Part shown: piece after piece, positions 34,373 to 39,441 of the stretch
Layout of the letters: every line of letters starts with the position of its first letter
Numbering within the stretch: position 1 is the stretch's first letter
Source of the DNA: Lysobacterales bacterium
Lineage (GTDB): Bacteria; Pseudomonadota; Gammaproteobacteria; Xanthomonadales; SZUA-36
Assembly: GCA_013001885.1 (NCBI GenBank)
Contig: JABDLD010000072.1
Span: forward strand, 1 to 42,774
Reading direction: 5' to 3'
DNA: 42,774 bases
The notes under the pieces: model-generated
Told to the model about the DNA's origin: nothing
What the model saw: only the letters and a program-made list of their open reading frames with translations
Database searches by the model: none
Made by a program: the position numbers and the translations under genes

Positions 34373-34458
<86 letters not shown>

Positions 34459-34472
34459 CGTGTCGGAAAAAA

Positions 34473-34548
34473 TGGTGGGCCATCTAGGACTCGAACCTAG
34501 AACCAATAGATTAAGAGTCTACTGCTCTGCCAATTGAGCTAATGGCCC
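34473..34548 (-). tRNA. tRNA-Lys (anticodon CTT)
   Basis: The 76-base tRNA begins GGGCCATTAGCTCAATTGG and ends with encoded CCA. The anticodon stem GTAGA/TCTAT holds CTCTTAA, giving CTT. It reads only AAG, so a TTT-type lysine tRNA must be elsewhere in the genome. Confidence 0.94.
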
Positions 34549-34557
34549 ATAGTAAAT

Positions 34558-34633
34558 TGGGGTGGACGATGGGGCTCGAACCCACGACCGCCGGAATCAC
34601 AATCCGGTGCTCTACCAACTGAGCTACGCCCAC
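34558..34633 (-). tRNA. tRNA-His (anticodon GTG)
   Basis: The 76-base tRNA begins GTGGGCGTAGCTCAGTTGG and ends CCCA with encoded CCA. The loop TTGTGAT gives GTG. The base before it (34634) supplies the extra 5' G (-1) that histidine tRNAs keep. Confidence 0.96.
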
Positions 34634-34674
34634 CATTGCTATGCGCGGCTATTTTACCTCCTTTTCCTGCCCGG

Positions 34675-34700
34675 TTGGAGCGAATTTCCATTCGCCCCAA
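34675..34700. repeat. REP-like hairpin between tRNA-His and tRNA-Arg
   Basis: TTGGAGCGAAT pairs with ATTCGCCCCAA around TTCC, with one mismatch. The core GGAGCGAATT is shared with the elements at 24330 and 41695. It directly abuts the partial tRNA-Arg copy at 34699. Confidence 0.55.
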
Positions 34701-34912
34701 TGGCGCGCCCGGCAGGACTCGAATCACATGCTGCTGCGCGTCGCTTATTTCAAGCTGCGCTTGAAAACCGCACCGCTTCGCATGCGTTTATGAGATCTTC
34801 GCACTCCCTGCGGTCGCGTCTCAGATCTGCGGCGGTTCTCGCTCTACCGGTACAGCCATTTAAAAGCAGGCCCGTGGCCCGCTTTCAAATGGCGCGCCCG
34901 GCAGGACTCGAA
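34699..34912. repeat. Direct repeat duplicating the 3' end of tRNA-Arg(TCT)
   Basis: A 25-base perfect direct repeat occurs at 34699-34723 and 34888-34912. The second copy is the T-loop-to-CCA end of tRNA-Arg(TCT); the first is a fragment without the rest of the tRNA. The 164 bases between them hold no gene, only several short palindromes. The layout resembles attL/attR sites left by a lost integrative element, or a small tandem duplication. Confidence 0.7.
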
Positions 34913-34966
34913 CCTGCAACCCTCGGCTTAGAAGGCCGATGCTCTATCCGGTTGAGCTACGGGCGC
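34890..34966 (-). tRNA. tRNA-Arg (anticodon TCT)
   Basis: The 77-base tRNA begins GCGCCCGTAGCTCAACCGG and ends with encoded CCA. The stem TCGGC/GCCGA holds CTTCTAA, giving TCT (AGA codons). It is the second tRNA of a Pro-Arg-His-Lys-Leu array leading into tig. Confidence 0.97.
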
Positions 34967-34974
34967 AATCGGAC

Positions 34975-35051
34975 TGGTCGGGGTGGAGGGATTCGAACCC
35001 CCGACCCACTGCTCCCAAAGCAGTTGCGCTACCAGGCTGCGCTACACCCCG
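34975..35051 (-). tRNA. tRNA-Pro (anticodon TGG)
   Basis: The 77-base tRNA begins CGGGGTGTAGCGCAGCCTGG and ends with encoded CCA. The stem ACTGC/GCAGT holds TTTGGGA, giving TGG. It is the first gene of the minus-strand tRNA array, so the array promoter should lie in 35052-35187. Confidence 0.97.
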
Positions 35052-35187
35052 ACAAGGATTACAGCCGGGCAATGGTACGGAGTTCAGGGGGATACGTCAA
35101 CGCCAAAATGAGCAAAAAAGGGCCAATCGGCAGCGCGGCAGCGGTTGACATCCGGGCACTCCAACAGGATAATGCGCTGCTTCTTTA

Positions 35188-35264
35188 GCGCCCGTAGCTC
35201 AGCTGGATAGAGTACTCGGCTACGAACCGAGCGGTCGGGAGTTCGAATCTCTCCGGGCGCGCCA
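35188..35264 (+). tRNA. tRNA-Arg (anticodon ACG)
   Basis: The 77-base tRNA begins GCGCCCGTAGCTCAGCTGG and ends with encoded CCA. The stem CTCGG/CCGAG holds CTACGAA, giving ACG; A34 is normally deaminated to inosine to read CGU, CGC and CGA. It is divergent from the minus-strand array. Confidence 0.97.
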
Positions 35265-35587: not shown

Positions 35588-38374
35588 CTAAAAAATGGTG
35601 GTGGTCACGTTCGAGCAGTTCGTTTGGCTTCCTGCCGCGCAAACCTGGTGCTCATACGTTGCGCCTCCCTTCTCACCGATGAAGTCGTCATAACTTCCCC
35701 CGCCCTCTCCGGACGCGACCAAATTGCCATCCCTGTAAACATCCACTGTCGGTGTACCCGTCCATTCGATAATGACGCCGTGCCTGCCTTTGCTCTTGTA
35801 AGAGTTGGCCGTCATTACAATCGCGCCCGGCTGATCCGCCTCGTCCGTGGTTGCATTCGCCGTGGTGAAACCTTCACTGCCGTTGCTGTTCCAGGCGCTT
35901 ACGCGATAAAAGTACTGGGTTGCGGCATCCAGTCCGACATCGCCGTGGCTTTCCGTGCCAGCCCCTAAAGTGGCGATTTCAACCCAGTTTGTTGAACCAT
36001 CCGGCGAGCGCTCCACCGTGAAGCCGATCTCGTCGGACGACTCGTCAACCCATGTGAGGTCAATGGCGGAAGACGAAACAGCCGTTGCCGTCAGGCCTGA
36101 GGGCGTTACCGGCGGATTGGCCGGCGGCGGATCGCCCGAGTTGTCCACCCGGATAAACAGGTGGTCGACGTGCAGGCTGCTCTTCGCGCGGTCACCCGAC
36201 TGCTGGTGCGTATCGGTGGCCCGGATTATGATCGAACCGCCGGGCGATCCGTTCAGCACGGCCGACTGCAGGTTGCCGACGGTACCGGATGAAATGTTCA
36301 TCAGCGGTGCATAACTGCTGCCGCCGTTGGTTGAATATTCGAGGTCGAACGATTCGCTGGCGTTGGTTCCGGATTTCCAGGCCTGGGCAAATACGGTCAC
36401 GACCGCGCCGTTGCCGATGCTGAAATTCCAACGGTGTTCCAGGTAGGTGTAGCGGTTCGCAGGCTTGCCGCCGGATTCACGCTCGGTGATGACCTGCGCG
36501 GAACCGTTGTCCGTGTGCGTGGCGGTGTGCGTGCCGCTGACTGAACCGGAAACCTGCGTTTCGCTGACCGAGGTGTAATCAACGAAAGCCGGAGGCTGGT
36601 CGGTCGTGGCGCTGGCCACGCCGGAAGGTGCGGTGGCGTTCCCGGCCTGGTCGCGCGCTTCCACGTTGAAGGTGTACTGGGAGCCGGCTGCCAGACCGCT
36701 GGCGGTATAGGAAGTCCCGGCCTGCCAGCCGCTGCCGGCGCAGCCCTGTCCGCCCGCCAGGCAGTTGAAGCGGTACTGCACCGTGCTGATGTCATCGGTG
36801 GCGGTCAGCGCGGTCATGCTGATTTCGCTGTCGGAAATCGCCGTTGGCGCGCTGGCGAAACCCATCGGGTCGGGCGTGGGCGCGGTCTCGTCAGCTGCCG
36901 CTGCAGCCAGCGCTCCGTTGATGAAGTACTGCCCGAGGCTGTCGTAATCAGAGTACGGCGTCTGGTCGTTACCCGTTCCGGTCACCAGCAGGTAATAGGT
37001 GCCCGGGCTGACCGGCGCGCTGATGGCCGCCGACGTCGTGTTGATCGGCTCGCTGGCCGCGATCACTGTATTGCTGTTATCGCGCAATTCCACGTCGATA
37101 TCCAGGTTGGCGCCGCGGCGTGAGGTGTCGCGATAAAATGCGTCCCAGGCCGGTGTCACCACCAGGTCAACCGTGCCGGCGCCGGCAACGAATGAAAACA
37201 CGTCTACGTCGATGGATGAGCCGATAACGCCCTTGTTCTCGGGCAACACATTGTGCGGGTCCTGCTCGGGGTTGGAAGACACTACCGAACCGTCCGGCGC
37301 GACATCCAGCCAGGTGGCTGTGGCCAATGTGTCGCCGTGGTCGTCACCCAGGTAACCCAGGCGCCCGTCGATAATGGCCAGGTCGTCCTGACCGGTACGG
37401 TTGGCGTCGGGGTATTCACCCTTGCTCCACTGCGTGACGTTGTTGTAATAACTATTACCCATGATCGGCGCCCACGAGACCAGGCCGCTGCCCTGGCCAC
37501 CGTAATACTCGGTGCCTGAATTGGTGCCGTCGTGCGACAGCCCCAGGTTATGGCCAAATTCATGCGAAGAAGCCTCGGCGACGTAAGTCTCGTTGCCGCC
37601 GCCCAGCTGGTTGAAATAGACCAGGGCCGGCGAATAAGTCGTATGGTAATTGCTGTTGCCAAACACGCCCACGTAGGCCACGCCCCCGCCCGTGTTGTAC
37701 GGCATCGCCCGTCCAGCCTTGTCCACGGTGTGCGTCACCAGGATATGTCCGGTGTAGCGGTCGAAACTGGCCGGCGCCTCGGTGGTGACGTCGATATTGA
37801 ACGGCGCCAGATCTTCCGCGACGCGGTGCCAGATATCGACGATCCTGCGGCGCTCGGTGGCGTTGAAGGTGTCGGGAAACCCGTCGAGGTCGTAGGCCTT
37901 GCCATCGAATGTTCCGCTGCCCCAGGCCGTGTCGGTAAACGCGTGGCCGTCAAAATCGATAAACACGCGGTTGGGCGCACCGGGCCGGCTGTGCAGGTTG
38001 AAAGCGTCATCCAGCGTTTCCTGCGGCACCACGCCCGGCTCGGTGCCGGATACCGGGTCTGCCGCCTCGGTGGAATTAACCACCAGGGAATCGGCGTACA
38101 GAATGCCGCCCTGGCTGTCTACGTTCAGTGAATTCAGGTCAGCCGCAGCAAAAGCAAAACTCTGCAGCCATTTCATTGCCTTGCTGCGAGCCTGTGGCGG
38201 CAGCGCCTCGAGATTACGTTTCATCTGGCCGGGCGGCAGGTCGTCTACCCGGGCCGGCTGGTTCAGCCCATAAACCCTGGATTTAAGTCCCTGGTCTGAT
38301 TGAGCCAGTAATGCGGTTGGAAGTGAGGCGAAGAAAATCGCGGACAATAAAAATCGTGCAAAACGGTTATTCAT
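35588..38374 (-). CDS. Secreted zinc metalloprotease with PPC and fibronectin type III domains
   Basis: The 928-residue exoenzyme starts at 38374, giving the signal peptide MNNRFARFLLSAIFFASL...LLAQ; the longer frame adds 35 residues with no export character. A propeptide-like region of about 110 residues precedes the catalytic domain. The zinc site is HEFGHNLGLSH (H271, E272, H275, H281), with the later Met in APIMGNS as a metzincin-type Met-turn. A PPC-like domain follows (VDVFSFVAGAG to SPGTYYLLVTG, about 390-490), then Ig-like and fibronectin type III modules (LTATAVSSSAIDLTWVDESS near 770). A final beta domain has two cysteines (QVCAAGS, TNCSN). It should degrade extracellular protein; the accessory modules may bind substrate or mediate secretion. 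A CsrB-like RNA lies upstream, but no direct link is shown. Confidence 0.9.
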   Translation of the reverse strand: MNNRFARFLLSAIFFASLPTALLAQSDQGLKSRVYGLNQPARVDDLPPGQMKRNLEALPPQARSKAMKWLQSFAFAAADLNSLNVDSQGGILYADSLVVNSTEAADPVSGTEPGVVPQETLDDAFNLHSRPGAPNRVFIDFDGHAFTDTAWGSGTFDGKAYDLDGFPDTFNATERRRIVDIWHRVAEDLAPFNIDVTTEAPASFDRYTGHILVTHTVDKAGRAMPYNTGGGVAYVGVFGNSNYHTTYSPALVYFNQLGGGNETYVAEASSHEFGHNLGLSHDGTNSGTEYYGGQGSGLVSWAPIMGNSYYNNVTQWSKGEYPDANRTGQDDLAIIDGRLGYLGDDHGDTLATATWLDVAPDGSVVSSNPEQDPHNVLPENKGVIGSSIDVDVFSFVAGAGTVDLVVTPAWDAFYRDTSRRGANLDIDVELRDNSNTVIAASEPINTTSAAISAPVSPGTYYLLVTGTGNDQTPYSDYDSLGQYFINGALAAAAADETAPTPDPMGFASAPTAISDSEISMTALTATDDISTVQYRFNCLAGGQGCAGSGWQAGTSYTASGLAAGSQYTFNVEARDQAGNATAPSGVASATTDQPPAFVDYTSVSETQVSGSVSGTHTATHTDNGSAQVITERESGGKPANRYTYLEHRWNFSIGNGAVVTVFAQAWKSGTNASESFDLEYSTNGGSSYAPLMNISSGTVGNLQSAVLNGSPGGSIIIRATDTHQQSGDRAKSSLHVDHLFIRVDNSGDPPPANPPVTPSGLTATAVSSSAIDLTWVDESSDEIGFTVERSPDGSTNWVEIATLGAGTESHGDVGLDAATQYFYRVSAWNSNGSEGFTTANATTDEADQPGAIVMTANSYKSKGRHGVIIEWTGTPTVDVYRDGNLVASGEGGGSYDDFIGEKGGATYEHQVCAAGSQTNCSNVTTTIF

Positions 38375-38634
38375 TTTGATCCCCTGTTCTGAAATGCAAA
38401 AAGCACTCTTTGAACCGCCCTGTTCAAAAACGTCCTTTTCCCTTAATCCATGCTTTTCTGTTCGCTTAGAATAATGCAATTACGATGCCATTAATTAAAC
38501 TTGTCGAACGATTTTATTACTTATCTCTTATATTCTGCAGGTTATGTGTAGTTTCAAGAATTTACTTCATTACCAGGCAAAACGCAGACGCAAGCAAAAA
38601 CTGACCAACTGCGTCAGCCTTTACCGATTTTTGT
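38375..38634. other. AT-rich leader of the metalloprotease gene
   Basis: These 260 bases lie between the protease start and the end of the RNA gene. On the minus strand TTGAAA (38552-38557) and TATAAG (38527-38532) could form a promoter, but the spacer of 19 bases is long. The leader would be about 150 nt. No coding sequence is visible. Confidence 0.35.
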
Positions 38635-38660
38635 AAAAAAAACCGGGGCAAAAGCCCCGG
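38635..38660 (-). terminator. Terminator of the CsrB-like RNA
   Basis: On the minus strand CCGGGGC and GCCCCGG form a seven-bp GC stem with loop TTTT, followed by eight T. It is the strongest intrinsic terminator in this part of the window. Confidence 0.92.
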
Positions 38661-38975
38661 CAGTCTCGTTGGATTTAGCGGGTAGCAGCTCCCGCGCATC
38701 CTGTTGGAACTTGTTCGGATTGGGTGGTCGAGGCGCCAGCCCTCCCTGGCTGCCTCGATTGCCATACCTGGCTCTCGCCACCCGTTCCCTTGAATACAGA
38801 CCATCCCTGGCCTCTTCCAGTAGCCATCCTGGCTACATCACTCCACCAATAGAACCATCCCTGGTGGTCTTGCGGCCTCCCTGGCCGCCATTTTCGTAAT
38901 TCAAATGACCATCCTTGGTCGCCACCTGCACATCCGTTGCATTACGAAACTGGTTTCCTCTCCCAACTCCAGCTC
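38635..38975 (-). ncRNA. CsrB/RsmZ-like CsrA-sequestering small RNA (candidate)
   Basis: The minus-strand transcript of about 340 nt has 15 GGA trinucleotides between 38690 and 38970, mostly as CAGGGAUGG, CCAGGAUGG or AAGGAUGG. Several are in the loops of short stems: GACC/GGTC with hexaloop AAGGAU (38907-38920), GCGGCC/GGCCGC with AGGGA (38872-38888), GTAGCC/GGCTAC with AGGAU (38820-38836), and CAGCC/GGCTG with AGGGAG (38737-38752). The RNA ends in the stem CCGGGGC/GCCCCGG with loop TTTT and eight U (38635-38660). Known CsrB, CsrC, RsmY and RsmZ RNAs have exactly this design and titrate CsrA/RsmA by its GGA-loop sites. I infer the same function. There is no open reading frame of note. The 5' end is uncertain: I find no clear promoter, and it may begin inside, or be processed from, the 3' end of the Lrp/AsnC gene. 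Confidence 0.82.
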
Positions 38976-38982
38976 TTGCCTT

Positions 38983-39441
38983 TTATTCTTCCAACGGTAA
39001 TGCGGTGGTGTATTTATTGCTCCTCAACACAAAACTCGTGTTTACGTGGTGTACGGCTCTGCAAGGCATAATGTGCTCACGCAGCAGCTTCTCGTATGCC
39101 CGGATGCTTTTGCACGCCATCTTCAAGTGATAGTCATGCGAGCCACTCATGGCATAGCACTCCAGGATCTCGGGCCGTCCGGCTACCATCTCGTCAAATT
39201 CCCTAATGCTCAAGGGATGGTGGTCCTCTAATGAAACCGCAGCTATCGCGATGACATCCAGCCCAATTTTCTCCGGGTCCAGTAACGTAACTGTGGTAGT
39301 AATTACCCGGTCTTCCTCCAGTTTTTTAACGCGCCGCCAACAGGGCGACGTAGATAATCCGACCTTTTCCGCGAGAGCCTGGCTGGAGAGCGTGCCGTCG
39401 GCTTGCAACTCCGCTAGGATTCTCAGGTCTGTCTTGTCCAT
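38983..39441 (-). CDS. Lrp/AsnC-family transcriptional regulator
   Basis: The 152-residue protein has an N-terminal winged helix-turn-helix (MDKTDLRILAELQADGTLSSQALAEKVGLSTSPCWRRVKKL) and a C-terminal RAM domain (EILECYAMSGSHDYHLKMAC) that binds amino acids and drives oligomer formation. The divergent phenylalanine hydroxylase gene 137 bases away points to aromatic amino acids as likely ligands; this is inference from position. Repeated TTTGA/TCAAA half-sites lie between the two genes. The stop codon at 38983 lies just before the CsrB-like RNA region, so both may share a transcript. Confidence 0.92.
   Translation of the reverse strand: MDKTDLRILAELQADGTLSSQALAEKVGLSTSPCWRRVKKLEEDRVITTTVTLLDPEKIGLDVIAIAAVSLEDHHPLSIREFDEMVAGRPEILECYAMSGSHDYHLKMACKSIRAYEKLLREHIMPCRAVHHVNTSFVLRSNKYTTALPLEE

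Follow-up and report, generated by a model that had tools for sequence, protein, structure and literature searches.

Among the sites recognized by CsrA-type proteins, the ANGGAN hexaloop is the form bound with high affinity by RsmE, a CsrA homologue, and CsrA can bridge sites located 10-63 nt apart, according to PMC7652899. In Xanthomonas campestris, RsmU (sRX061) is an RsmA-binding 3'-UTR product located behind comEA; it is 117 nt long, carries four GGA motifs and an intrinsic terminator, and had no entry in Rfam 13.0. Changing all four predicted GGA abolished neither RsmA binding nor the effect of overexpression, the RsmU-deficient strain resembled the wild type in the traits tested, and the authors found RsmU only in Xanthomonas (PMC7694677). 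Therefore, GGA loops alone do not prove a mode of binding. The homologues of rsmB were described as unidentified in Xanthomonas genomes in a 2014 paper (PMC3937308).

The stretch of DNA analyzed here (42,774 nucleotides, hereafter the window) comes from a genome of 3.3 Mb in 96 contigs, estimated to be 98% complete, and presents on its minus strand a candidate RNA that, with a probability that we put at about 0.86, acts as a CsrA-sequestering decoy, whichever its source (Table 1). The preliminary description had reported some 340 noncoding bases with 15 minus-strand GGA, ending in a strong intrinsic terminator and lying between an Lrp/AsnC gene and a secreted protease. The count was reproduced in the intergenic stretch 38634-38975 (342 bases), the two neighbors were recovered by their Pfam matches (AsnC_trans_reg and Reprolysin_3), and the terminator was located at 38661-38642, followed by its T run to 38635. 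The bounds that we give for the RNA are those of the DNA that starts one base after the stop codon of lrp and includes this T run, so that its 5' bound is set by the stop codon and not by a mapped 5' end. Further downstream, behind the protease gene, the window contains a tRNA cluster (34376-35261). In the divergent relative G016, tRNAs and the trigger factor gene follow the RNA, which suggests that the protease gene came between the RNA and the tRNAs in the clade of the window.

Table 1. Positions of the candidate RNA, its structural elements and the neighboring genes in the window, with the basis of each assignment.
Feature	Position	Strand	Basis or remark
Lrp/AsnC-family regulator gene	38983..39441	-	Pfam AsnC_trans_reg 72 bits; constant upstream neighbor
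Candidate Csr/Rsm-type decoy RNA	38635..38982	-	GGA hexaloops, fold, homologues, covariation
Closing helix 5' arm, AGUUUCGU	38944..38951	-	RNAalifold; 8-pair helix
Hairpin H0, loop ACGGAUG	38927..38941	-	Loop count, relatives, pair count
Hairpin H1, ANGGAN hexaloop AAGGAU	38907..38920	-	GGA hairpin in 7/7 loci
Hairpin H2, loop AGGGA	38872..38888	-	Compensatory change in G004; missing from G009
Hairpin H3, ANGGAN hexaloop AGGGAU, 3-pair stem	38854..38865	-	Missing from G009
Hairpin H4, loop AGGAU	38820..38836	-	Compensatory change in G009
Hairpin H5, ANGGAN hexaloop AGGGAU	38799..38812	-	Pair count, hexaloop count
Three-way junction GGGUGG...CCACCC, holding H6 and H7	38722..38783	-	Basis of model R1
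Hairpin H6, loop AGGUAU	38761-38772	-	Inside three-way junction
Hairpin H7, loop AGGGAG	38730-38756	-	Inside three-way junction
Hairpin GCGGG-AGCUGCUA-CCCGC, GGA at stem edge	38678..38695	-	85.7% of cells paired
Closing helix 3' arm, ACGAGACU, beside terminator	38662..38669	-	RNAalifold, pair count
Intrinsic terminator stem-loop	38642..38661	-	8-pair stem, 4-base loop, T run to 38635
Metalloprotease-like gene, downstream	35588-38479	-	Reprolysin_3 26 bits, cut-off 22.4

The number of GGA motifs in this stretch is within the reach of shuffled sequences, and their placement in loops is not. A scan for GGA density, which the preliminary description had proposed, gave a divided answer: the number tops the window, with 16-17 motifs in stretches overlapping the RNA, and among 342-base segments not overlapping it 15 motifs are found in 5 of 4175 on the minus strand while the plus strand does not exceed 14, whereas 15 motifs are not unusual for the base composition (11.7 +- 2.3 in shuffles). 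The same description had seen many of the motifs in three recurrent forms, which holds for only 5 of the 15 (two CAGGGATG, two CAGGATG, and one AAGGATG), and had counted at least four GGA in hairpin loops, which proved to be an understatement. Nine of the 15 can sit in hairpin loops 3-9 bases long whose stems have at least four pairs, compared to a mean of 2.37 in dinucleotide shuffles, none of which reached nine in 1000 trials; when the test was repeated with 347 bases, one shuffle in 500 did. Four exact ANGGAN hexaloops on at least three pairs (AAGGAU, AGGGAU twice, and AGGGAG) are expected 0.05 times in shuffles and were matched by none of 500. Throughout the rest of the window (4175 segments of 342 bases per strand, none touching the RNA) the maxima were one hexaloop and seven GGA loops, and the opposite strand of the RNA stretch yielded no hexaloop and a single GGA loop. 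In addition, the stretch folds more stably than its shuffles (z = -5.3). In the other loci that were retrieved, none of 5416 segments of 340 bases had more than six GGA loops; outside this set, a Gly/Asp-rich coding stretch of a relative (L138) also reaches nine, and therefore a loop count of nine is not specific by itself.

The structure that we have drawn contains seven hairpins with a GGA in the loop and one more with a GGA at the edge of its stem; two of the nine possible GGA loops (at 38958 and 38818) belong to alternative hairpins that clash with it. In the RNAalifold model, the whole domain would be closed directly before the terminator by an almost invariant helix of eight pairs, of which 39 of 40 cells are paired across the relatives. 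As seven of its eight pairs are invariant, this predicted helix has no support from covariation.

Copies of the RNA were found in seven loci including the window, all of them directly 3' of an lrp/asnC gene, and the Lrp proteins of the other six share 68-95% identity with that of the window. A BLAST search in 61 genomes retrieved the RNA in the genome of the window and in G004, G015, G009, and G019; a match of 22 bases in G025 was discarded because it covered only the terminator stem. In a scan of named genomes with an Lrp alignment, 80 loci were kept and the sequence behind lrp was inspected in 12, half of which (6/12) carry the RNA and half of which (6/12) do not. Those carrying it are L018 (the G004 contig, "Lysobacterales bacterium"), L019 (G015, "Xanthomonadales"), L020 (labelled Fermentibacteria), L021 (G009), L022 (G019), and the divergent L023 (G016). 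The labels of L018 and L019 suggest that the order is Xanthomonadales/Lysobacterales, those of the remaining loci being less precise or different. In 500 shuffles of each of the seven loci, the observed number of GGA loops occurred no more than 4 times. The copies are not uniform: G009 is without H2 and H3, G015 has insertions, and the copy of G019 has fewer hairpins and runs to the contig end without a terminator. On this comparison of sequences, whole hairpins seem to be gained and lost together with their loops. Length changes of two and four bases also occur within hairpins among the relatives, which speaks against a coding frame.

Covariation was assessed in the five full-length loci out of seven, leaving aside G019 (contig end) and G016 (divergent). 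In these five sequences, 329 of the 336 cells of the 69-pair structure are paired (97.9%), and seven pairs are changed on both sides, compared to a mean of 2.7 in shuffled controls (0/500 reached seven) and to a maximum of two when the structure was slid along the alignment. The both-sided changes are located in H2 (one), H4 (one), the GCGGG-AGCUGCUA-CCCGC hairpin before the terminator (three), and the terminator stem (two). Most GGA stems and the closing helix are invariant, and the covariation thus consists of seven pairs in five sequences. Conserved GGA loops with covarying stems, which the preliminary description had named as the pattern to look for in relatives, are present. The opposite pattern, a loss of GGA loops in close relatives, is observed for single hairpins, namely those missing from G009 and the H6 loop, which among the five aligned sequences reads GGA only in L020 and G009, the window and the copies of G004 and G015 having GGU; the array itself is kept.

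The distribution of the RNA was further explored with covariance models. Model R1, built on the three-way junction, matched 4 of 39 genomes of the family (E <= 0.01) and the same 4 among 398 genomes of the order (E <= 0.001), while model R2, built on the 5' part, strongly matched 6 of the 39 (60-108 bits), its building set including the copies of G019 and G016. These strong matches are genomes of the models' own building sets, so that R1 and R2 add no independent homologue. Nine loci among the other R2 matches (at most 21.2 bits) were inspected and none presented a comparable RNA, one GGA-rich stretch among them being coding. In three congeners (76-90% complete), neither the RNA (by the models) nor an Lrp match at E <= 1e-30 was found; a 20-bit R2 match in one of them, G001, was inspected and is not a copy. 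In other genera of the family, which lie outside the clade with the RNA, a different sequence follows the lrp orthologue and the RNA is absent in the seven that were inspected (480 bases each, 129 in one case; four more orthologues could not be placed), and in six of these seven the start of a SerC-like protein was recognized by eye. A search of a plasmid collection gave no match to the RNA. As far as these models can tell, the RNA is either clade-specific or evolves too fast for R1 and R2. A triple CAGGRA pattern was also tried as a finder and abandoned: 38 of the 39 genomes match it and, among the matches listed, most look coding by eye. Similar short stretches with CAGGGATG motifs were noticed by eye at G001:C148:7409, G007:C59:44609, and G016:C69:45513; such stretches, in several genomes of the family, might represent a short dispersed repeat that contains CsrA-like sites.

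The genome of the window contains partners for such an RNA. A single CsrA gene was found (103 bits, NCBIfam cut-off 73), adjoining an apparent alaS, named by eye. A GacA-like response regulator scores 246 bits, below the cut-off of 280, the next best gene of the genome reaching 116, and its gene adjoins one with an RNase E/G domain. The sCache_4 domain, a part of BarA/GacS, was not found in this genome (98% complete) by a search that does recover it in E. coli. Together, the GGA hexaloops, the terminator, the stems with pairing-preserving changes, and the presence of CsrA and GacA-like genes agree with the functional class of the Csr/Rsm decoys and support the assignment made in the preliminary description, though not necessarily as the only such decoy of the organism. 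We infer from these features that the RNA is transcribed, processed, bound by CsrA, and of consequence for CsrA targets. The minus strand from about 38982 to 38635 would encode a noncoding RNA no longer than about 350 nt, whose multi-branch domain would offer several GGA hairpins to CsrA; one RNA could hold several CsrA dimers and thereby free their mRNA targets.

Which transcript carries the RNA is a separate question. In all seven loci, the conserved block starts with GGCA 0-3 bases after the lrp stop codon, on the same strand, and no intrinsic terminator was found between lrp and the RNA; lrp transcripts should thus carry it. The gene downstream varies: it is protease-like in the window, L018, and L019, and of the desaturase family in L020, and in L023 (which is the same contig as L107) tRNAs and the trigger factor gene occupy this place, leaving lrp as the constant partner. 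This constant place suggests an RNA derived from a 3'-UTR rather than a free-standing gene of the csrB type, and we lean, at slightly better than even odds, toward an RsmU-like source in which the RNA would be released from the 3'-UTR of the lrp mRNA by processing, possibly supplemented by a promoter within lrp. The main rival to this source, leaving the decoy function untouched, is a free-standing decoy gene of the csrB/rsmZ type, activated by GacA from a promoter of its own within the terminal part of lrp. Such is the usual arrangement of CsrB and RsmZ and a GacA-like regulator is present in the genome; however, no sigma-70-like promoter sites were found at the RNA, no GacA box was detected near it with up to three mismatches allowed, and in the roughly 480 bases upstream at the seven loci the best site agreed with at most 8 of the 12 positions of the GacA-box consensus. 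Neither does the 3' end of lrp show extra conservation at silent positions in six sequences (0.62-0.65 against 0.57-0.81 elsewhere), and every copy found sits behind lrp. An independent promoter is a tentative alternative, well short of even odds.

Other readings would deny the decoy function itself. Because the downstream gene differs between relatives, we consider that the RNA is not a leader: a 5' leader or attenuator of the protease gene, controlled by CsrA or another factor, would fit the common strand, the terminator preceding that gene, and the protease-like gene found downstream in the window, L018, and L019, yet the RNA is kept before the desaturase-family gene of L020 and before the tRNAs and trigger factor of L023, with lrp always upstream, making this role very unlikely. 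A little less improbable, though still unlikely, is a structured 3'-UTR that ends or stabilizes the lrp mRNA, or a cis-acting CsrA site controlling lrp. The constant lrp neighbor is in its favor, and an mRNA can hold several cis CsrA sites, the pgaA leader having six according to PMC7652899; against it, the RNA carries in its 340 nt or so as many GGA loops as CsrB, more than a stabilizer should need, and whole hairpins are missing from G009, as would be expected of a titrating array. Chance, or decaying repeat-rich sequence without function, could be invoked from the restriction of the RNA to one clade and from the G019 copy, poorer in hairpins and without terminator at the contig end; nevertheless, loop counts, hexaloops, folding energy, and covariation all exceed their controls, and we regard this last reading as negligible.

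The Rfam models proposed in the preliminary description for recognizing the RNA (CsrB, CsrC, RsmY, and RsmZ) did not do so: none of the Csr/Rsm families, RsmX included, reaches its cut-off in the window, and among the matches listed the CsrB and CsrC models have none to the RNA stretch up to an E of 10. The best Csr-type match in the stretch is to rsmX (23.7 bits at 38795-38896, cut-off 56), which we discard as noise, given that rsmX matches at E <= 0.01 occur in 136 of the 299 genomes searched in the order, with 27-40.5 bits among the matches listed; several of the eight such loci inspected are tRNA or terminator regions by eye. A similar rsmX match in L020 (29.5 bits) was rejected on the same grounds. 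RF00018 and RF02144 exceed their cut-offs in none of the 299 genomes. By these model searches, then, the RNA belongs to no sequence family in Rfam 15. At the contig end of L020 (3286-3367), matches to several eukaryotic miRNA models below their cut-offs are probably an artefact.

Following weak matches to RF00018, GGA-hairpin arrays were also found in the order outside this family, in two further families. One, at about 1481-1760 in L178-L181 (genus g26), precedes an L,D-transpeptidase gene and directly follows an apparent comEA, a gene whose product has an HHH_3 (helix-hairpin-helix) domain; RsmU is reported from this position. The array has 13 GGA in 280 bases, compared to the four of RsmU, and seven GGA loops in the 280 bases of L178 (0/500 shuffles). 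Model R3, built on this RNA in the comEA-like position, strongly matched 11 of 398 genomes of the order (at least 43 bits), all from g26 and four of them from its own building set, with four more at E 0.002-0.006 and no match in the genome of the window. The genus g26 may be Xanthomonas itself or a close genus. The other array, on the reverse strand of L177 (G118, family f8) at about 1480-1830, is CsrB-like, with 16 GGA, nine of them in loops (350 bases, 0/500 shuffles reach nine), and matches the CsrB model over its full length with only 24 bits.

Compared to RsmU, the RNA of the window is a larger candidate decoy from a different family of what appears to be the same order, and it too follows a protein gene directly. 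This favors the view that CsrA decoys have originated more than once as arrays of hairpins, that RNA libraries miss them, and that they can be found by combining synteny with the counting of hexaloops. A more far-reaching proposal, which we hold at a little under even odds, is that a CsrA decoy is made here only by processing of the lrp mRNA, the order having replaced the GacA-driven csrB/rsmZ by clade-specific decoys. Regulators of the Lrp type often respond to amino acids. If the proposal is true, each round of lrp expression would also release a dose of CsrA antagonist, so that one transcript would couple the amino-acid state to the control of carbon storage, and the replacement decoys, counting RsmU and the two arrays of other families, would differ by clade and in some cases be 3'-UTRs.

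Compared to the known systems, the RNA of the window combines features of several. E. coli CsrB (RF00018) is of the same length class, has the same number of GGA loops (nine), and likewise ends in a terminator, while CsrC (RF00084), measured alike, has six; neither CsrB nor CsrC has an ANGGAN hexaloop on at least three pairs, in contrast to the four found here. The csrB gene has its own promoter and is located 210 bases behind syd, whereas only 0-3 bases separate the conserved block of the RNA from the stop codon of lrp. ANGGAN hexaloops are shared with RsmX, RsmY, and RsmZ of Pseudomonas (RF02144, RF00195, and RF00166), of which the RNA is approximately three times the length. With RsmU it has in common the location directly behind a protein gene of the same strand, the GGA motifs, and the intrinsic terminator; RsmU has 117 nt and four GGA behind comEA, as opposed to about 340 nt and 15 GGA behind lrp. 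The RsmA RNAs predicted in Vibrio fischeri are likewise GGA-loop RNAs in 3'-UTRs, although, as presented in the part of that study dealing with them, they are predictions only, of about 70-125 nt, with other host genes (PMC5568370). In the literature searched, we came across no description of a Csr RNA that follows lrp. Both the sequence family and the host gene of the RNA appear to be new, whereas a CsrA decoy RNA represents a known mechanism and not a new one.
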